Of a DNA stretch of 64,000 bases, positions 9,085 to 63,807 are shown piece after piece. The notes below the pieces were generated by a model. The model was not told where the DNA came from. It was given only the letters and a program-made list of their open reading frames with translations, and did not search any database. Numbering within the stretch: the stretch's first letter is position 1; the number at the start of each line of letters is the position of its first letter. The stretch covers positions 62,001 through 126,000 of the forward strand of contig JAQGEQ010000372.1 in the NCBI GenBank assembly GCA_034620365.1. The letters run 5' to 3'. The position numbers were made by a program, and so were the translations under genes. The DNA comes from Pegea sp. RAD2-039 (Eukaryota > Chordata > Thaliacea > Salpida > Salpidae).

Positions 9085-10460
9085 TATAAGGTAGACAAGA
9101 TTAATTAATTTTTAAAGATTTTGAAATGATAATTGTGCCATGTAAAATCAACTGGTAAAGAAATGCAGCGGTTTATAAGCGAATTTTCTCTTGGAATAGT
9201 AAATCCATTAAAGGAATATAATCCAGTACATAGACCAGTTTTCTAAAATGCATAGTGCAATTTGAAGTTTTAAGGGATTAAAAGATAATATCTTGATGTC
9301 ATCTTTATACAAAAACACACTGACATCATCTACTGGGACTAGTCTTCTGAAAAGTTCTCCAATGAAAGTTAAAAAGAGAAGGGTACCTAGAACAGAACCC
9401 CGAGGAGCACCACTGGTGATTTGAATAAGAGTAGACAAGGATCTTTTAACACAAAATTGCTGGAATCTTTGTTATAAGTAATCTCTAATCCATTTTAAGA
9501 TAAATATGCTGATTTTTATTTTATATAAAGCAATAATGAACTTGTTGTGGGGTACAGAATAAAATACTTTAGCAAAAAAGAGATATATGTCACAAGGAGT
9601 ATTACTTTACTGGATTAGTATTAATAGACTGTAAGCTCATTATGAAAAATGAGATGTTTAATCAGTAAAGATCTCCGCTTCACAAAGCTAGCTGGACATC
9701 AGATAGTAGATGGTGCTCCATCAAATGACTGCTCATATGATTCTGAATGATATGATCTTCAGTTCTGCAGACAACTGAAGTCAACGAAATTGGTTTGTAG
9801 CTAAGTGTTGTGTTTCTAGGTCTCTTTTCATGAAAAGGAGTAATGATAGATTTCTCACAAACTTGGGGACTTTTCTTCCCCTCGGAGTGTGGTTAGAGAG
9901 TGGATTATGTATCAAACCTTAATCTTAAAACTTGACAAACATTCAGAGATCGATTCTGTGTCAAATCTAGTATTAGTGTATTCAATAGTTACTAGTTATT
10001 CTTTACTCAACTCTAACGATTTCCTTATCGACCACAATTTTTGTTCTCAGAGTTTAGTTGCTAAAATTATTCTGATTAAATACTTTAATAAGCAACTATT
10101 TAATAAATCAATATCAAATTCTGTTATCATCTTTAAATCTTTTGAGTTGTGGAATTCAAACATTCTCTTTTTCTGTTCTCTGCGGTTATACTGGATTATG
10201 TTTGCTATATCATTTGTTAATTGTAGCCATGTCTCTTTCGGCAATAAAAATAACTAAACAAATAAAAATAATCATTTATTTCTTGACCATAGTTTAACAC
10301 AATACATTGTAAAGTTTATAATTAAAGCTAGAAAATCTTTAAAAGTCACCTAAAATGTTTCGATATTAAAATGTGGCGAAGAGTTATGTTAAAAGATGTT
10401 CAGATAAAAATAATTTTTGACTATTGATGTTGGAAACAAAACATTTCATTAAAAATCATT
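9085..10460 (-). mobile_element. LINE reverse-transcriptase remnant, copy 2
   Basis: The minus-strand open stretch at 9,208-9,438 contains ITSGAPRGSVLGTLLFLTFI followed by VSVFLYKDDIKILS. The latter is the RT catalytic motif, normally YADD, here YKDD. Further up, an open 65-codon linker piece lies at 10,047-10,244. The intervening RT fingers are frame-broken. This copy has the uninterrupted junction at about 10,255-10,262 where copy 1 carries a SINE. Sequence up to about 10,460 is shared with the other two copies. The plus-strand frame 9,889-10,257 is a shadow. Confidence 0.85.
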
Positions 10461-27211: not shown

Positions 27212-28220
27212 CTGTTAAGTAACCTTCAATCCACTTTATGTTACAGCTGCTGATTTTTAATTTTTATAAAACAATAATCAGCTTGGTGTGTGGAAAAGAT
27301 ATGTTGGATAGAATTAAACACTTTAACAAAATAGAGATATATGATGTCACAAGGAGTCTTACTTTCATAATGAACTGTAAGCTCATTATAAAGAGTGAGA
27401 TGTTGATTCAGGGAAGATCTTATTTTCCCAAGACCATGTTGGACATCTGATATTAGATGGTATTCCATCAAATGACTGCTCGTATGATTGTGAATAATAT
27501 GTTCTTCAGTTCTGCTGATAACTGAAGTCAACGAAATTGGTTTGTAGCTAAGTGTTGTCTTTTCATGGACCCTTTTGAGGAATAGGAGTAATGATAGATT
27601 TCTCACAAACTTGGGGACTTTTCTTCCCCTCGGAGTGTGGTTAGAGAGTGGATTATGTATCAAACCTTAATCTTAAAACTTGACAAACATTCAGAGATCG
27701 ATTCTGTGTCAAATCTAGTATTAGTGTATTCAATAGTTACTAGTTATTCTTTACTCAACTTTAACGATTTCCTTATCGACCACAATTTTTGTTCTCAGAG
27801 TTTAGTTGCTAAAATTATTCTGTTTAAATACTTTAATAAGCAACTATTTAATAAATCAATATTAAATTCTGTTATCATCTTTAAGTCTTTTGAGTTGTGG
27901 TACTCAAACATTCTCTTTTTCTGTTCTCTGCGGTTATACTGGATTATGTTTGCTATATCATATGTTAATTGTAGCCATGTCTCTTTCGGCAATAAAAATA
28001 ACTAAACAAATAAAAATAATCAATTATTTCTCGACCATAGTTTTAACACAATACATTCTAAATTATATAATTAAAGCTAGAAAATCTTTAATAGTCTCCT
28101 AAAATACTTTGATAATAAAATGTGACTAAGAGTTGTGTTAAGTGATCTTCAGATAAAAAATTTATTAACTATTGATGTTGGAAACAAAACATTTCATTAT
28201 AAATCCGTTTACTTATGTTT

Positions 28221-33616: not shown

Positions 33617-36588
33617 TTATCGATTCCTTCTGGATATCCTCACGCTAGATCTTCGACATCGGCGATTTTTCTTCCAACGATAATAAAATTGGACGACTTC
33701 TTTAACCGTTTTGTCTTTGAGCTGTATAAGTAAAGTTATAAATATATTAGATATTTATGTAATCTTAATAACAATCACAAAAAGTAATTTCTTTTGTTTC
33801 GAAAAGTATTCAAAATGGATTAAATTGTTTACAGTTGACTCAAAAAATAAAAAGGATATAGCTAATGAATTTACTAACATAGTCCTTCTGTATATTCATG
33901 AAATTCTTTTTGTGTTTACGGAAACCCCTTACAAACATTTTACGATCATTGATGGTCCAATTTTCCATAAAAGGAGTATTTTTTTGCTTGATAGAGTAAG
34001 CTTCAAAAGCCTTAAAATAAAATAACAGTTTAAGCTTTAGAATAAAATCGGAAGAATTTCAAAAGATATTTTTTTAATTGTAAGACTTTAACATTTATTG
34101 GGAATGTAAAGGAAATAAGAAATAAGTGAACTGTTAATATTTATCTGTTTTATCATTTACCTTTTTAACGTCATAATCATTTTTAGATAAGACTTCAAAT
34201 GCTTCCTCATAGAAAATTTCTGAATGATTTTTCTTACCATCACTTGCTGGATTTTGTTCAGAGCAAGTGGAAATAAAATGTTTTGCTTAAAAAAAATAGA
34301 ATATTAAAATTGTCATTGCTGGTGAACTATTGTTTCAACAAACTTAATAAAAACATATTTTAAATTTAAAAATCTTATTTATTATTTACAGGTTAATACT
34401 TTTGAGTTTTAATTTATCAACTATTACAAATGTCCATCTTTGAAAAAACCTACCATCTTCATCAGATAAACGCTTCGAGTCAAAAGTTAGCTTTGACAAC
34501 TCAACTTCTTCAAAAGTTCTGTTAATCTCTGGTAAATTGGTAATCTACAAATATACTTTAGTAATTGCTCAAATACAGTAAATTATAAATTACTTGATAT
34601 TGTTCACCAATCCTCTGCTTTACTCTATGTTTATCCCAACACTCAATCAATTCAGAAAATTCATTTCTGACTAGATAAAAAAATTGAGAATTTTTGTTGT
34701 TACTTAAATTGCAATAAGAGTACAAGCAAAATAAATGATAAGAAATATAATTTTTCTTTTTACAGTTATAAAAAGATTAGTTAGAAAAAGTAAACTAACA
34801 AAAAAGTTACGAAAGTATATAATCTTTGTTATTAGAGTTAGCTAAATAAATAGTACTACTACAAAATAAATTATACAGTATATTTTATCTAAATAATTGA
34901 TGGTATCCTTATAAAAAAACCAGTAATTGCTGAAAACAAAATTTTTAATTAACTATTAATATTGAACTCTATGGATATTTCTTAACCTTATAAAGAAAAG
35001 GAAGATAAGTGCACCTTGTTACTGGATAAAAAATAACATCAATACTTTTAATTAAAATCTTAAAGATAACAGTTTGGAGTCTCAATATATCAGTATTTAC
35101 TTTAGACTTCTCTATTTTTAAAACTTACATTCTTCATCAGAGAATGAGCTTGAGTCAACATCTACATTTGAATTTTGACAGTCGCCAGCGGTATTTTCTA
35201 CGTTTGGTGGGCTTTCAACCTATAAAATTTTTATTAGACCTGACCATTTATTGAAAATTTTTTCTTACTTGACATTGTTCATCAGTCTGTGATTCGCTTC
35301 TAGTTTCATCACAAAGATCTGGAAAATGGTCTAAATTGTCATTTGATTTTTTCTTAACTAAACAGACACTTTAGATAAAGTTAATGATTCATTGAAAAGC
35401 ATTGAATTATAAAAAAACTACATTAGTTTTTGAACAAACTAATAAATTTAGTTTTTTAGTTTAAAATCGTAATGAAGATTTTATAAAATTAAAAATAGTT
35501 CTTTAATGTTGAAAACCAATTTAGTTTGCAAGTTAAATAGCAGAATAATTTTGCTGTTTTACCAGTTTCATAGTTACATAGCTCAATCGAAATTCTTTCA
35601 AGAAATGACAAAAACACAAAAAAAAATTAAAAATTATCAAAACTATTCTGCCAAAAGTAAAATAACAAATAAGTAAAAACCAATACACATATAGATTTTA
35701 AGCACAGATGGATTTACCGTTTTGTTGACTGGAATTGGTTGGAACATTCTTTTTTTGTTGGCTCTCCTGGGTTGTTTTTCGTTTGCATTTGAGTTCGGTA
35801 GAACTATTAGATTCTGTTTTATTTTCATTGGAAGGATCAGTTGATAATTGTGTATGAATTGGTTCATCTAGCTGATTGCTTGATGAAGGATTTTCATTTG
35901 AAATTTCTTCCAGATTATTTTCCTTTTAACGTGAAAATGTTATTTAAACTTTCATGATTGCTATAACTACTTACCCTTTCATTAGTAAGTTCATAATCAC
36001 CCCACATTTCCCCCATTAAAATCTTGTTTCTAATATGTTGTGGCTTCTAAAGAAATAAAGTAGTTTTATAAAATCAACTGTAAAAAAATAACTTACAATC
36101 ACAGCTATAACATCAGGATTTCGTCCACCTGGCTTTCTACCATCTTGAATGCCTGTCAGATTTTATATAAAAAATGACAAAAGAAAAATTATTTAGTAAA
36201 CTCACCTTTCATATTCATTCCTATGTCAAGACAAGTTTTAAAGCGACAATACTGGCATTTTCCTAAATCTTTTACAGCACAATTCTTGGTATACATACAA
36301 ATGTAAGTTTTTCTGGACTTAACAGTTCGCCAGAAAAAGCATTTACATGCTTCGCAGCAAATCACTCCGTAGTGCTTGCTATTACGGACAACTTTGCTTT
36401 TCTTGACAACTTTGCGTTTCTTGACAACTTTGCGTTTAATGAGATCCAGACAGACCACACATTTTGGTTTTTCATCCTTGTTAGCTAAAAAAAAGTGGTT
36501 AATATCTAGGACAAATAATTTTTGTCCAAAACTTACTTTTGTTGACATGTTTTTTCACATAAGATTTGCGGTCAGCAGTAGACTCCAT
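33617..36588 (-). CDS. Nuclear-receptor DNA-binding domain fused to an ELM2-SANT corepressor module, copy A
   Basis: Twelve exons: 36588-36537, 36484-36206, 36152-36097, 36046-35975, 35922-35718, 35357-35269, 35219-35129, 34670-34594, 34544-34454, 34285-34161, 34010-33879, 33721-33617. Every donor/acceptor phase agrees and the sum is exactly 458 codons. Residues 26-111 are a C4 nuclear-receptor DNA-binding domain: CVVC, HYGVICCEACKCFFWRTV with P-box CEACKC, then CQYCRFKTC. The second finger has seven rather than nine residues between its middle cysteines. GRKPGGRNPDV follows, then an acidic, Ser-rich linker. Residues about 300-380 match ELM2 (RIGEQYQITNLPEI; YEEAFEVLSKNDYDV), and 397-441 match SANT (W397; LKDKTVKEVVQFYYRWKK). 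ELM2-SANT pairs in MTA, MIER, CoREST and RERE recruit HDAC1/2. No ligand-binding domain is seen. Predicted role: DNA-tethered repressor. A read-through stop near 35,700 or a further donor (GTGAGG) in the last exon could alter the ends. Confidence 0.84.
36387..36437 (-). repeat. 18-bp tandem repeat inside the first zinc finger (three units)
   Basis: The plus-strand unit is GACAACTTTGCGTTTCTT, repeated about three times. It encodes K-R-K-V-V-K-like six-residue repeats between the second and third zinc ligands. Copy B at 57,013-57,045 has one unit fewer. Confidence 0.85.
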
Positions 36589-44513: not shown

Positions 44514-45886
44514 CTAATTATCATCAACATATTTTGTTAACTCTTTTAACCCATATTTTATCAAAATATCAATATAATTTTTCATCATATCTTCTTTTAC
44601 AAATGCTGCTGAATAATCCTTAAATTCTATCAAAGGACGCATCAGCAAATATTCATCTAGTATCCTATCACCTGGTAAGCCTTCATATTGGTCAACTCCA
44701 GTTATGTGAGTTACAAGTATCTGCAAAATTTATGGAACAGACAACTCTTCAATCATGTACAAATAAACGACTTTCTAGGGTTTAATATTCTTCACATTTA
44801 TGCGTATTGTGTCGTGATAAGTTTGAAGTTTCAAGTTATATGGCTTTTGTATGAAAAACATGATTGTTAAACATTCTACTAGAACCGAAACACAATTTTT
44901 TATCTTTCTGAGACAATTTTAGCTTAGAGTAGTTCATCCAACAGTTCTTACTACAATTAGTTTTTATGGCTTGCATGTTCTTATCAAATAATTGATTTTT
45001 ATCTTAGATAAGCTTTGCAAGTTTTTCTGCATCCCTTGATTTTCTATTTATAGTGTTTCTTTCATTGATTTTAACTTTAACATATTTTTCTCAATTGCAT
45101 TTAAATTACTTTTGTTTCCTGCAGATTTCAAATCTACATCAGAATGTTCAGAATTTTGTAGCTGTTCTCGTCTTTTTAATCGCTCACAGCGATCGAACTT
45201 TTGTTTGAATTTTTTGTGAAAATCTTGCAGAATTTTGCTTTGATCTCCCTCTAAAAAATCCATCAAATCATTTTCATCAGTAATTTCATCAATTTCGTCT
45301 CTGTCAGTATCTTCATTAAGATCAAGTGAAAAATTGCTACTGCTCTCACTACTAGTAGAATAAACTTTGTCAGCTTTTTCACACATATCATTTGCCTTTC
45401 TTTTCTTGATTGTTCTTAAAACAAACAAATTTGACTGAAATTGTGATTTACCATTTTTTGTAGAACTTTTCATTTCCTCAAAATTAAAATAATCCTTTCT
45501 GAAGCACGGACCCATGATCTTAACAAGATCGTCTTGATTCGTAAGCAATTGAAAATCTGGACTAACATAAAGAAGTTTTTGGGAATAATTAGAAAATTAA
45601 TTTTCTAAACAATATAAACCCCTAACAACTTTAGCCTTTCAAAGATAAATTAATGATATCAAATGTACTTAAATCCTCAATCTCAAAATCAATTCAACTA
45701 TTTTAACTTAAATTTATACTGTATCAGCTAATTTATTACATAATTTTACCTAAAAGTAAATAGAAGACTAAATATAATCTTACAGTAATAGATTGACTTG
45801 TCGCTTTATGTTTGTTTCTTGTAATACGTTACTTTTTACATTTTCCACTTCTTCAGGATAACAAAAGTAATTAAGAGGCTTTCTGT
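44514..45886 (-). pseudogene. Acidic, serine-rich protein gene of unknown family, copy A (probably decayed)
   Basis: Pieces on the minus strand: about 45,886-45,786 (RKPLNYFCYPEEVENVKSN), 45,578-45,048 (LLTNQDDLVKIMGPCFRKDY, a Lys/Ser stretch, an acidic run with EDTDRDEIDEITDEND, then a charged helix KKFKQKFDRCERLKRREQLQ), and 44,724-44,514 (LVTHITGVDQYEGLPGD to the end KYVDDN). Compared with the third copy at 52-53.4 kb, one base is lost near 45,068, shifting the frame before a conserved SRDAEKLAKLI piece. A TAA at about 44,730 interrupts a stretch that is open there. Short introns could explain the second but hardly the first. I do not recognise the family. Confidence 0.45.
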
Positions 45887-52054: not shown

Positions 52055-53411
52055 AATTATCATCAACATTTTTAGTTAACTCTTGTAACCAATTTTCTTT
52101 TCAAAATATATGTTTAATCTTTCATCATATCCTCACTTACAAACGCTGCTGAATATTCCTTAAACTCTATTAAGGGACGCCTCAGCAAATATTCAACTAG
52201 TATCCTATTACCTGGCAAGCCTTCACATTGGCCAACTCCAGTTATGTGAGTTACAAGCGTCTGCAAAATTTCTGAAACAGACAACTCTTCAATCATGTAC
52301 AAACAAAAGACTTTCTTGGTTTAATACACATTTATGCATATCGTGATAAGTGTGAAGTTTAAAGTGACATGGATTTTGTATGAAAATCATGATTGTTTCT
52401 ACTAGAGCCAAAAAACAATTTTTTTATTTTTTTTAGACAATTTTAGTTTAGAGTAGTTAATCCAACAGTTCTTACTTCTATTAATGTTATGACTTCTATG
52501 TCTCTATCAAAATATTAATTTTTTATCTTAGATAAGCTTTGCAAGTATTTTTGCATCTTTTGATTTTCCATTTTTATTGTCTCTTTCATTGATTTCAACT
52601 TTAACACTTTTAATCTCAATTGAAATTAAATTACTTTTGTTTCCTGCAGATTTTATCTGCCTCAGAATGTTCAGAATATTGTAGCTGTTCTTGTTTTCTT
52701 AATCGCTCACAGCGATCAAACTTTTGCTTGAACTTTCTGTGAAAATCTTGCTGATTTTTGCTTTGATCTCCCTCTAAAAAATCTATAAAATCATTTTCAT
52801 CAGTACTTTCATCAATCTCGTTTATGTCAGTATCCTCATTAAGATCAAGTGAAAAATTGCTACAGCTCTCACTACTAATAGAGTAAATTTTGTCAGCTTT
52901 TTCACACATATCATTTGCCTTTCTTTTCTTGGTTGTTCGTAAAACAAACAAATTTGACTGAAATTGTGATTTACCATTTTTTGTAGAAATTTTCATTTCA
53001 TAACATTAAAATAATCCTTTCTGAAGCACGGACACATGATCTTAATAAAATCATCTTGATTCGTAAGCTATTGAAAATCTGGACTAGCATAAAGAAGTTT
53101 TAGGGAAAAATAAAAGAATTAAATTTCTAAACAATATAAAAGCCTTACAATTTAAGCCTTTCAGAGATAATTTAATGATATCAAATAAACTTAAATCCTC
53201 AATCTCTGAATCAATTCAACTATTTTAACTTAAAATGATACTCCATCAGCTAATTTATTATATAGTTTTACCAAAAAGTAAATAGAAGACTAAATATAAT
53301 CTTACGGTAAGAGACTGACTTGTCGCTTTATGTTTGTTTCTTGTAATACGTTGCATTTGCACTTTCCACATCTTCAGGATAACAAAAGTAATTAAAAGGC
53401 TTTCTGAACAA
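52055..53411 (-). pseudogene. Acidic, serine-rich unknown gene, third copy (unit tail)
   Basis: It matches 44,514-45,886. Here the stretch YMIEELSVSEILQTLVTHIT is open where the other copies have TAA, and the KDAKILAKLI end is in frame with the preceding IEIKSVKV. It is broken elsewhere: a two-base loss near 52,655 ends one frame at ADKICRKQK; a one-base loss near 53,360 shifts the PEDVES piece; and the C-terminus stops early at SEDMMKD. It is followed directly by unit 2. Confidence 0.5.
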
Positions 53412-54262: not shown

Positions 54263-57195
54263 TTATCGATTCCTTCTGGATATCCTCACGCTAGATCTTC
54301 GACATCGGCGATTTTTCTTCCAACGATAATAAAATTGGACGACTTCTTTAACCGTTTTGTCTTTGAGCTGTATAAGTAAAGTTATAAATATATTAGATAT
54401 TTATGTAATCTTAATAACAATCACAAAAAGTAATTTCTTTTTTTTCTAAAAGTATTCAAAATGGATTAAATTGTTTACAGTTGACTCAAAAAATAAAAAG
54501 GATATAGCTAATGAATTTACTAACATAGTCCTTCTGTATATTCATGAAATTCTTTTTGTGTTTACGGAAACCCCTTACAAACATTTTACGATCATTGATG
54601 CTCCAATTTTCCATAAAAGGAGTGTTTTTTTGCTTGATAGAATAAGTTTCAAAAGCCTTAAAATACAATCATAGTTTAAGCTTTAGAAAAAAATCGGAAG
54701 AATTTCAAAATATATTTTTTTAATTGTCAAATTGTAAGACTTTAACATTTATTGGGAATGTAAACCAAATAAAAAACAAGTGAATTGTTAATATTTATGT
54801 ATTTTATCATTTACCTTTTTAACGTTATAGTCATTTTTAGATAAGACTTCAAATGCTTCCTCATAGAAAATTTCTGAATGATTTTTCTTACCATCACTTG
54901 TTGGATTTTGTTCAGAGCAAGTGGATATAAAATTTATTGCTTAAAAAATAACAGAAAATTAAAATAGTCATTGCTGTTGAACTATTGTTTCAACAAACTT
55001 AATAAAAACATACTTTAAATTTAAAAATCTTATTTTTTAATTACAGGTTAATACTTTTGAGTTTTAATTTATTAACTATTACAAATGTCCATCTTTGAAA
55101 AAACCTACCATCTTCATCAGATAAACGCTTCGAGTCAAAAGTTAGCTTTGACAACTCAACTTCTTCAAAAGTTCTGTTAATCTCTGGTAAATTGGTAATC
55201 TACAAAAATATTTTAGTAATTGCTCAAATACAGTAAATTATGAATTACTTGATATTGTTCACCAATCCTCTGCTTTACTCTATGTTTATCCCAACACTCA
55301 ATCAATTCAGAAAATTCATTTCTGACTAGTTAAAAAAATTGAGAATTTTTTTTGTTACTTAAATTGCAATAAGAGTACAAGCAAGCTTAATGATAAGAAA
55401 TATAATTTTTCTTTTTACAGTTATAAAAAGATTAGTTAGAAAAGTAAACTAACAAAAAAGTTACGAAAGTATATAATCTTTGTTATTAGAGTTAGCTAAA
55501 TAAATAGTACTACCGCAAAATAAATTATACAGTATATTTTATCTAAATAATTGATGGTATCATTATAAAAAAACCAGTAATTGCTGAAAACAAAATTTTT
55601 AATTAACTATTAATCATGAACTCTAAGGATATTTCTTAACCTTACAAAGAAAAGTTACCGGTAAAAAATAACATCAATACTTTTAATTGAAATCTTAAAG
55701 ATAACAATTTGGAGTCTCAATATTTACTTGAGACTTTTCTATTTTTAAAACTTACATTTTTCATCAGAGAATGAGCTTGAGTCAACATCTACATTTGAAT
55801 TTTGACAGTCGCCAGCGGTATTTTCTAAGTTTGGTGGGCTTTCAACCTGAATAATTTTCATTAGACCTGACCATTTATTGAAAATTTTTTCTTACTTGAC
55901 ATTGTTCATCAGTCTGTGATTCGCTTCTAGTTTCATCGCAAAGATCTGGAAAATGGTCTAAATTGTCATTTGATTTTTTCTTAACTAAACAGACATTTTA
56001 GATAAAGTTCATGATTCAACGAAAAGCATTGAATTATAAAAAAAATACATTAGTTTTTGAACAAACTAATAAATTTAATTTTTTAGTTTATAAACGAAAT
56101 GAAGAGATTACAAAATTAAGTATAGTTCTTTAATGTTGAAAACCAATTTAGTTTGCAAGTTAAATAGCAGAATAATTTTGCTGTTTTACCAGTTTCATAG
56201 TTACATAGCTCAATCGAAATTCTTTCAAGAAATGACAAAAACACAAAAAAAATTGATAATAATCAAAACTATTCTGCCAAAAGTAAAATAACAAATAAGT
56301 AAAAACCAATACACGTATAGATTTTAAACAAAGATGGATTTACCGTTTTGTTGAGTGAAACCGGTTGGAACATTCTTTTTCTGTTGGCTCTCTTGGATTG
56401 TTTTTCGTTTGCATTTGGGTTCGGTAGAACTATTAGATTCTGTTTTATTTTCATTGGAAGGATCAGTTGATAATTGTGTATGAATTGGTTCATCTAGCTG
56501 ATTGCTTGATGAAGGATTTTCATTTGAAATTTCTTCCAGATTATTTTCCTTTTAACGTGAAAATGTTATTTAAACTTTCATGATTCTTATAACTACTTAC
56601 CCTTTCATTATTAAGTTCATCATCACCCCACATTTCCCCCATTAAAATCTTGTTTCTAATATGTTGTGGCTTCTAAAGAAATAAAGTAGTTTTAAGAAAT
56701 CAACTGTAAAAAAATAACTCACAATCACAGCTATAACATCAGGATTTCGTCCACCTGGCTTTCTACCATCTTGAATGCCTGTCAAATTTGATATAAAAAA
56801 TGACAAAAGAAAAATTATTTAGTAAACTCACCTTTCATATTCATTCCTATGTCAAGACAAGTTTTAAAGCGACAATACTGGCATTTTCCTAAATCTCTTA
56901 AAGCACAATTCTTGGTGTACATACAAATGTAAGTTTTTCTGGATTTAACGGTTCGCCAGAAAAAGCATTTACATGCTTCGCAGCAAATCACTCCGTAGTG
57001 CTTGCCTTTACGGACAACTTTGCGTTTCTTGACAACTTTGCGTTTAATGAGATCCTGACAGACCACACATTTTGGTTTTTCATCCTTGTTAGCTAAAAAA
57101 AGTGGTTAATATCTAGGACAAATAAATTTTGTCTAAAACTTACTTTTGTTGATATGTTTTTTCACATAAGATTTGCGGTCAGCAGTAGACTCCAT
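54263..57195 (-). CDS. Nuclear-receptor DNA-binding domain fused to ELM2-SANT, copy B
   Basis: The same 12-exon structure as copy A, from ATG 57195 to a stop ending at 54263. All splice sites are conserved and no frameshift is found on comparing each exon with copy A. Exon 2 (57092-56832) is exactly 18 bases shorter because the first-finger repeat has two units instead of three, giving 451 residues. The zinc ligands, P-box CEACKC, ELM2 motif (IGEQYQITNLPEI) and SANT motif (W at the start of MENWSINDRKMF; KTVKEVVQFYYRWKK) are all kept. Most coding differences are single substitutions, such as AFET for AFEA, whereas introns show more indels. That pattern supports function of the whole 12-exon frame. 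Predicted nuclear repressor; DNA target unknown. Confidence 0.84.
57013..57045 (-). repeat. 18-bp tandem repeat inside the first zinc finger (two units)
   Basis: Same unit as 36,387-36,437 with one repeat fewer; the reading frame is kept. Confidence 0.85.
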
Positions 57196-62434: not shown

Positions 62435-63807
62435 CTAATTATCATCAACATATTTTGTTAACTCTTTTAACCAATATTTTATCAAAATATCAATATAATT
62501 TTTCATCATATCTTCTTTTACAAATACTGCTGAATAATCCTTAAATTCTATCAAAGGACGCATCAGCAAATATTCATCTAGTATCCTATCACCTGGTAAG
62601 CCTTCATATTGGTCAACTCCAGTTATGTGAGTTACAAGTATCTGCAAAATTTATGGAACAGACAACTCTTCAATCATGTACAAGTAAACGACTTTCTAGG
62701 GTTTAATATTCTTCACATTTATGCGTATTGTGTCGTGATAAGTGTGAAGTTTCAAGTTATATGGCTTTTGTATGAAAAACATGATTGTTAAACATTCTAC
62801 TAGAACCGAAACACAATTTTTTATCTTTCTGGGACAATTTTAGTTTAGAGTAGTTCATCCAACAGTTCTTACTATAATTAGTTTTTATGGCTTGTATGTT
62901 TGTATCAAATAATTGATTTTTATCTTAGATAAGCTTTGCAAGTTTTTCTGCATCCCTTGATTTTCTATTTATAGTGTTTCTTTCATTGATTTTAACTTTA
63001 ACATATTTTTCTCAATTGCATTTAAATTACTTTTGTTTCCTGCAGATTTCAAATCTACATCAGAATATTCAGAATTTTGTAGCTGTTCTTGTCTTCTTAA
63101 TCGCTCACAGTGATTGAACTTTTGTTTGAATTTTTTGTGAAAATCTTGCAGAATTTTGCTTTGATCTCCCTCTAAAAAATCCATCAAATCATTTTCATCA
63201 GTAATTTCATCAATTTTGTCTATGTCAGTATCCTCATTAAGATCAAGTGAAAAATTGCTACTGCTCTCACTACTAGTAGAATAAACTTTGTCAGCTTTTT
63301 CACACATATCATTTGCCTTTCTTTTCTTGATTGTTCTTAAAACAAACAAATTTGACTGAAATTGTGATTTACCATTTTTTGTAGAACTTTTCATTTCCTC
63401 AAAATTAAAATAATCCTTTCTGAAGCACGGACCCATGATCTTAACAAGATCGTCTTGATTCGTAAGCAATTGAAAATCTGGACTAACATAAAGAAGTTTT
63501 TGGGAATAATTAGAAAATTAAATTTCTAAACAATATAAACCCCTAACAACTTTAGCCTTTCAAAGATAAATTAATGATATCAAATGTACTTAAATCCTCA
63601 ATCTCAAAATCAATTCAACTATTTTAACTTAAATTTATACTGGATCAGCTAATTTATTACATAATTTTACCTAAAAGTAAATAGAAGACTAAATATAATC
63701 TTACAGTAATAGATTGACTTGTCGCTTTATGTTTGTTTCTTGTAATACGTTACTTTTCACACTTTCCACTTCTTCAGGATAACAAAAGTAATTAAGAGGC
63801 TTTCTGT
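62435..63807 (-). pseudogene. Acidic, serine-rich unknown gene, copy C (probably decayed)
   Basis: Near-identical to 44,514-45,886. It shares the one-base loss before the SRDAEKLAKLI-type piece and the TAA upstream of LVTHITG, so these lesions (or intron boundaries) predate the unit 1/unit 2 split. Open pieces: 63,469-62,969 and 62,647-62,435. Confidence 0.45.

Follow-up and report, generated by a model that had tools for sequence, protein, structure and literature searches.

Organisation of the gene and its full-length copies

The window analysed here is a stretch of 64,000 nucleotides (bases 62001-126000 of contig C65) from a genome of 105.7 Mb in 387 contigs, with a G+C content of 23-33% per 4-kb stretch; for monogonont rotifer genomes, 25-31% G+C is reported (PMC11954553, excerpt). 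Nematode SL1 has no exact match in this genome, and TTAGGG runs occur on three contigs, on one of them at its very first bases, which makes a nematode origin unlikely. On its minus strand, from 36588 to 33617, lies a gene, hereafter copy A, whose 12 exons join in frame into a 1374-nt coding sequence for 457 amino acids and a stop. All 11 introns are GT-AG and the phases are consistent throughout, so the 12 phase-consistent minus-strand exons proposed in a first-pass annotation were borne out, coordinates included.

Exon 1 (36537-36588) carries the start codon, MESTADRKSYVKKHVNK, and is found in all four full-length copies, while exon 2 (36206-36484) encodes a C4 receptor DNA-binding domain with 8/8 zinc cysteines. 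Exon 3 (36097-36152, 56 nt) adds a C-terminal extension, GIQDGRKPGGRN, which resembles NR6A1 and NR5A2, and exon 4 (35975-36046) encodes KPQHIRNKILMGEMW, which can be aligned by eye with EPPELIEEILTGKFW of an NR6A-type gene on contig C42. A linker follows in exon 5 (35718-35922; low-complexity), exon 6 (35269-35357) and exon 7 (35129-35219; acidic). The ELM2-like part begins in exon 8 (34594-34670) with RIGEQYQ, in the phases of the equivalent exon of an ELM2-SANT gene on contig C58, and continues through exon 9 (34454-34544), which at 91 nt is as long as its C58 counterpart, and exon 10 (34161-34285), the second half of ELM2 (EEAFEVLSKNDYDVKK). The first part of SANT is in exon 11 (33879-34010; 132 nt, as on C58), and exon 12 (33617-33721) encodes its last part (FYYRWKK), a basic tail and the stop.

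When the reading of exon 5 is extended into intron 5 a stop is soon reached (near 35,700), which would suit an arrangement of two adjacent genes, i.e., a short receptor consisting of the DNA-binding domain only and ending in intron 5, and an ELM2-SANT gene with its own start. We consider this arrangement improbable. Between residues 143 and 394, copy A lacks any Met in frame, which makes the separate ELM2 start raised in the first-pass annotation unlikely, as an ELM2 protein made on its own would have to begin in an exon not yet seen; the phases also stay consistent over 11 introns in each of the four full-length copies.

A protein search of the genome, in which the best 93 of 144 candidates were scored so that all copy counts are lower bounds, found at least four full-length copies, i.e., copies A and B in the window, copy C on contig C65 (at about 129.6-126.7 kb) and copy D on contig C106 (at about 356.8-359.7 kb). 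Copy B (54263-57195, minus strand) has the 12 exons of copy A and encodes 451 amino acids. Its exons 1 to 6 lie at 57195-57144, 57092-56832, 56778-56723, 56672-56601, 56548-56344 and 55984-55896, and exons 7 to 12 at 55846-55756, 55325-55249, 55199-55109, 54939-54815, 54656-54525 and 54367-54263. The 12 exons, 11 GT-AG introns and open frame are kept in all four copies, and the sole difference in coding length among them is an 18-nt in-frame difference in the loop of the first zinc finger.

Identity of the receptor and ELM2-SANT halves

The C4 receptor DNA-binding domain annotated at the protein start was upheld by a zf-C4 (PF00105) match at residues 53-108 of copy A (52.9 bits against a cut-off of 21.1; E 5.2e-14). 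Among solved structures this part is closest to NR6A1 (5krb, E 4.4e-17), followed by NR5A2. The eight zinc cysteines are found by pattern in all four full-length copies, and the P-box reads CEACKC. The canonical second finger has the spacing X5, X9, X2, and this is seen in the C42 NR6A-type gene; in the fused protein it is X5, X7, X2, leaving seven residues between Cys2 and Cys3 and not nine. The first finger is also unlike the canonical C-X2-C-X13-C-X2-C (PMC10497141, excerpt), with 31 residues between Cys2 and Cys3 in copy A and 25 in copies B, C and D, the loop of copy A being 18 nt longer. A short basic repeat, KRKVVKK, lies in this loop (exon 2, 36206-36484).

The absence of a ligand-binding domain, also annotated at first pass, held up, as Hormone_recep (PF00104) found no match in the fused protein at E<=1. 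Nuclear receptors with a DNA-binding domain alone are known (PMC10497141, excerpt). The first-pass annotation had named Tailless as an example of the orphan receptors that recruit Atrophin-type corepressors; in a comparison from which Tailless was absent, the receptor part looks NR6A-like by best match and by intron phases. A tree of DNA-binding domains was unresolved, with long branches meeting, and gave a p-AU of 0.205 for a single clade with the NR6-like rows.

Residues 222-457 of copy A matched solved ELM2-SANT chains, with RCOR3 at E 6.8e-16 and further matches to RCOR1, MTA1, RERE, MTA3, MIDEAS, NCoR1 and NCoR2. A three-row profile which includes the C58 gene matched RCOR3 over positions 15-169 of 178 (whole-chain E 4.5e-13), as well as RERE, MTA1 and NCoR2. 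The Pfam check suggested at first pass thus gave a mixed outcome: zf-C4 exceeded its cut-off, but ELM2 (PF01448) was unmatched in the copy A protein even at E<=10, and the SANT region reached only 19.9 bits with Myb_DNA-binding, below the cut-off of 24.4. The genome search with Pfam ELM2 was equally silent, which does not imply absence, the domain being split by exons, and NCBIfam had no match for the fused protein. Because the RCOR3 match spans both ELM2 and SANT, the annotated identity of the protein end is right: judged by homology to solved chains and by the related gene on C58, the module is ELM2-SANT, with a divergent ELM2 half below Pfam detection.

Through the profile, KKNF of copy A falls on GKDF of MTA1, with its second Lys in line, and FYYRWK falls on YYYMWK, where the Tyr and the Lys line up. 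At the positions that we take to form the SANT pocket of MTA1, the residues appear to be kept in the fused protein. The inositol-phosphate pocket of MTA1 uses two Lys and two Tyr (PMC4244562, excerpt). With Pfam ELM2 silent and SANT below its cut-off, HDAC binding by the fused protein is not assured.

Constraint among full-length and truncated copies

Copies A to D all arose recently as paralogues within a single genome, their coding sequences diverging by 0.7-2.5%, and because of this youth the evidence from intact frames is modest but clear. No stop-making change was seen, whereas the spectrum of substitutions in introns and flanks predicts 6.84. There was one coding indel against 7.9 expected from introns, and no frameshifting indel against 7.0. 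Codons with a single change comprised 26 replacement and 15 silent changes (one-sided p=0.032; 6 complex codons set aside), although no region was significant alone (DNA-binding p=0.17, linker 0.36, ELM2-SANT 0.08). That the family might be recently duplicated pseudogenes without a product is very unlikely: the youth of the full-length copies and the seven truncated copies described below, five of them decaying, are in its favour, and it is contradicted by the missing stops and frameshifts in four copies and by replacement changes that are depressed over the whole gene.

Variability among the four copies is unevenly spread. In introns 89 of 1568 columns vary, compared with 26/369 in exons 1-3, which encode the DNA-binding part (p=0.33), 16/457 in exons 4-7 (p=0.07) and 11/530 in exons 8-12, which encode ELM2-SANT (p=0.00037). 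The DNA-binding exons alone thus showed no slow-down relative to introns among these young copies, and the ELM2-SANT end is clearly constrained. Pairwise dN/dS was 0.40-0.67 for the whole gene, 0.32-0.73 for the DNA-binding part and 0.35-1.20 for the linker (1.07-1.20 in two of six pairs); for ELM2-SANT it was 0.24-0.36 in five of the six pairs, the B-C pair having no change there. These values bear on the idea that the fused protein is made but has lost HDAC binding, acting as a passive, dominant-negative blocker of NR6A sites. The silence of Pfam ELM2 and a DNA-binding half as variable as introns would fit such a blocker, but its ELM2-SANT part should not then be the least variable of all, nor should the SANT pocket residues appear kept, and we regard it as unlikely.

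At least seven truncated copies were found, five on contig C43 and the others at about 142 kb on C65 (C65:142k) and 392 kb on C106 (C106:392k). The five C43 copies start within exon 2 and differ from copy A by 0.136-0.157 in exons and 0.146-0.158 in introns. In the alignments all five have lost a splice site and carry a gap that shifts the frame, and four of them have stops in scorable exons; the C43 truncated copies are decaying.

The C65:142k and C106:392k pieces start in intron 7, are 98.2% alike and hold ELM2-SANT only, with splice sites and frame kept to the SANT end. Their exons are less diverged than their introns (0.068 and 0.074 vs 0.114 and 0.113), which would favour two adjacent genes over a fusion. 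Against this, the C65:142k piece, on which the test was run with the C106 piece left out, had dN/dS of 1.50, 1.19 and 1.07 against copies A, B and D (exons 8-12 to the SANT end), or 0.84, 0.66 and 0.62 without exon 8, none of them significantly below 1. It is ambiguous whether either piece makes a protein of ELM2-SANT alone. Overall, all four full-length copies are intact, and of the seven truncated ones five show decay and two are ambiguous; this favours, without proving, a single working unit.

The window also holds a duplicated gene (locus L031; 2277-3596 and 28759-30042, minus strand) with C-terminal C2H2-like fingers below Pfam cut-offs. A fingerless copy of it lies at C65:142k directly upstream of the truncated ELM2-SANT piece, and the two may be joined by splicing. 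An overlap of the ends of C106 and C65 as one tandem array was unsupported, as homology stops at C65:149142 and contig C260 matches the whole query.

Unfused relatives, proposed origin and related loci

For both halves the genome also holds a relative that is not fused. On C58 (698740-699913) lies an ELM2-SANT gene of 193 residues from its first ATG, with 41% identity to copy A. Its entry phases, 1,0,1,0,0 with the first counted from the acceptor that immediately precedes the ATG, are those of copy A exons 8-12. The exon lengths are 122/91/113/132/126 on C58 and 77/91/125/132/105 in copy A, two of them (91 and 132) being identical. A zf-C4 profile search of the genome found no match on C58. 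The ATG right behind its first acceptor is a further point for two adjacent genes, as it supplies a model for an ELM2-SANT gene with its own start.

The gene on C42 (about 329.7 kb) has an NR6A-type DNA-binding domain, which scored 139 bits with NR6A1 and 96 with the next best (query joined by eye). Among the matches listed, it is the best match of the copy A DNA-binding domain outside its own family, at 53% identity. The domain is entered in phase 1; next come an exon of 56 nt, AIREDGMPGGRN, and a phase-0 exon holding the EPPELIEEILTGKFW aligned above; the copy A equivalents are exon 2 (phase 1), exon 3 (56 nt) and exon 4 (phase 0). A ligand-binding domain was apparent by eye in the C42 gene, but Pfam did not detect one in the segments submitted.

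An unfused relative of each half with the same intron phases argues for exon joining and not for an annotation error, and we infer that the halves came together by way of intron sequence. Because the two families are each widespread as separate genes, we take the direction to be fusion and not fission. The gene is thus very probably a genuine fusion at the level of exons, in which no ligand-binding domain can be detected. The first-pass claim that DNA-binding and corepressor parts share one gene is supported by the in-frame model and four intact copies, although the corepressor half is divergent.

The explanation that we judge probable overall is a young, multi-copy fusion family which arose by exon shuffling and whose product would be a ligand-independent, HDAC-docking repressor. 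The DNA-binding exons of an NR6A-type orphan receptor, i.e., the domain, its C-terminal extension and the next short exon, would have been joined to a small ELM2-SANT gene like that on C58, the ELM2-SANT exons coming to occupy the usual place of the ligand-binding domain. NR6A and NR5A sites are of the AGGTCA type with a 5' extension, or DR0. The predicted product probably binds similar sites, its preference perhaps shifted by the P-box CEACKC. Its ELM2-SANT part would dock HDAC1/2 directly, with inositol phosphate in the SANT pocket. Nuclear receptors normally silence through a separate corepressor that can be displaced by ligand; here, neither a ligand nor a corepressor recruited as a separate protein would be needed to repress nearby genes. 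A hard-wired, ligand-independent, HDAC-recruiting repressor is the most likely function. CoREST-like, other ELM2-SANT-like and NCoR-like genes were identified by eye in the same genome (L052, L054 and L057), so the fused protein would supplement separate corepressors and not replace them.

If expressed, the gene would be a natural experiment on a receptor with built-in repression from which ligand control has been removed. With both unfused relatives in one genome, the birth of a fusion transcription factor can be traced by exon. More tentatively, and with less confidence than doubt, NR6A-derived receptors in this lineage may have repeatedly swapped the ligand-binding domain for repression modules, namely ELM2-SANT in the fused family and CtBP-like motifs of the PLDLR/PFNLS type in other multi-copy receptors, where a ligand-binding domain likewise went undetected, ELM2-SANT exons lying also beside the zinc-finger gene copy at C65:142k. 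If true, a receptor family would have been rewired by exon shuffling from ligand sensing to fixed repression.

Known systems share parts of this architecture. NR6A1 (GCNF) provides the best solved match to the DNA-binding domain, the extension ends in GGRN as in NR6A1, and the NR6A-type gene on C42 shares its phases and 56-nt exon with the fusion; however, the fused protein has no detected ligand-binding domain, a CEACKC P-box, a larger finger-1 loop and an added ELM2-SANT. It resembles CoREST/RCOR, MTA, RERE/Atrophin and MIDEAS by ELM2-SANT homology (MIER was outside the comparison), but unlike them it has a divergent first half of ELM2, and we know of no ELM2-SANT corepressor with a nuclear-receptor DNA-binding domain. 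Knirps and ODR-7 are receptors that, like the fused protein, have a DNA-binding domain and lack a ligand-binding domain; to our knowledge neither has an ELM2-SANT module. TRERF1 and ZNF541 have C2H2 fingers, which are not of the receptor type, and differ in origin. These two proteins of the MiDAC family are ELM2-SANT proteins found with HDAC1/2 (PMC4344507, excerpt). The combination of zinc fingers and ELM2-SANT is therefore already known, which narrows the first-pass claim that no protein of this architecture had been described: the titles and abstract openings searched described no fusion of a nuclear receptor with ELM2 and SANT, and the pairing with a nuclear-receptor DNA-binding domain is new to us. 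In Drosophila, Tailless and Atrophin are a nuclear receptor and an ELM2-SANT corepressor that act together (PMC5409829, excerpt), but as two separate proteins and not as one polypeptide.

Other receptor loci were also observed. Multi-copy single-exon frames of 480-641 amino acids (L038, L039, L040 and L048 on C183, C48, C212 and C341) have a C-terminal receptor DNA-binding domain and N-terminal repeats. In L038, zf-C4 (E 5.6e-18) was the sole Pfam family matched at E<=0.01, and the PLDLR and PFNLS stretches of this locus look to us like CtBP-binding motifs. At L041, and on C138, C150, C288, C291, C294 and C326, a receptor DNA-binding domain recurs every 4.15-4.17 kb, two to three per contig, with single near-identical matches on several further contigs, and makes up a large receptor array. 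NR6A-like DNA-binding domains at L046 and L050 (C79 and C148) have a nearby downstream frame with QPLDLRR, and the C42 NR6A-type locus contains QPMDLRK; no motif of this type was seen in the fused protein.

Within the window, related minus-strand frames of 182, 124 and 182 amino acids lie at 45048-45596, 52631-53005 and 62969-63517, the first two lying between the two full-length copies and the third past copy B; a scan of one of these frames had no Pfam match at E<=1. Near-identical 135-amino-acid frames lie on the plus strand at 915-1322, 9850-10257 and 27598-28005. The last of these runs into the end of a frame on the minus strand (27241-27666), which gave a weak match to reverse transcriptase (E 0.048), and the 135-amino-acid frames are therefore perhaps retroelement remnants.
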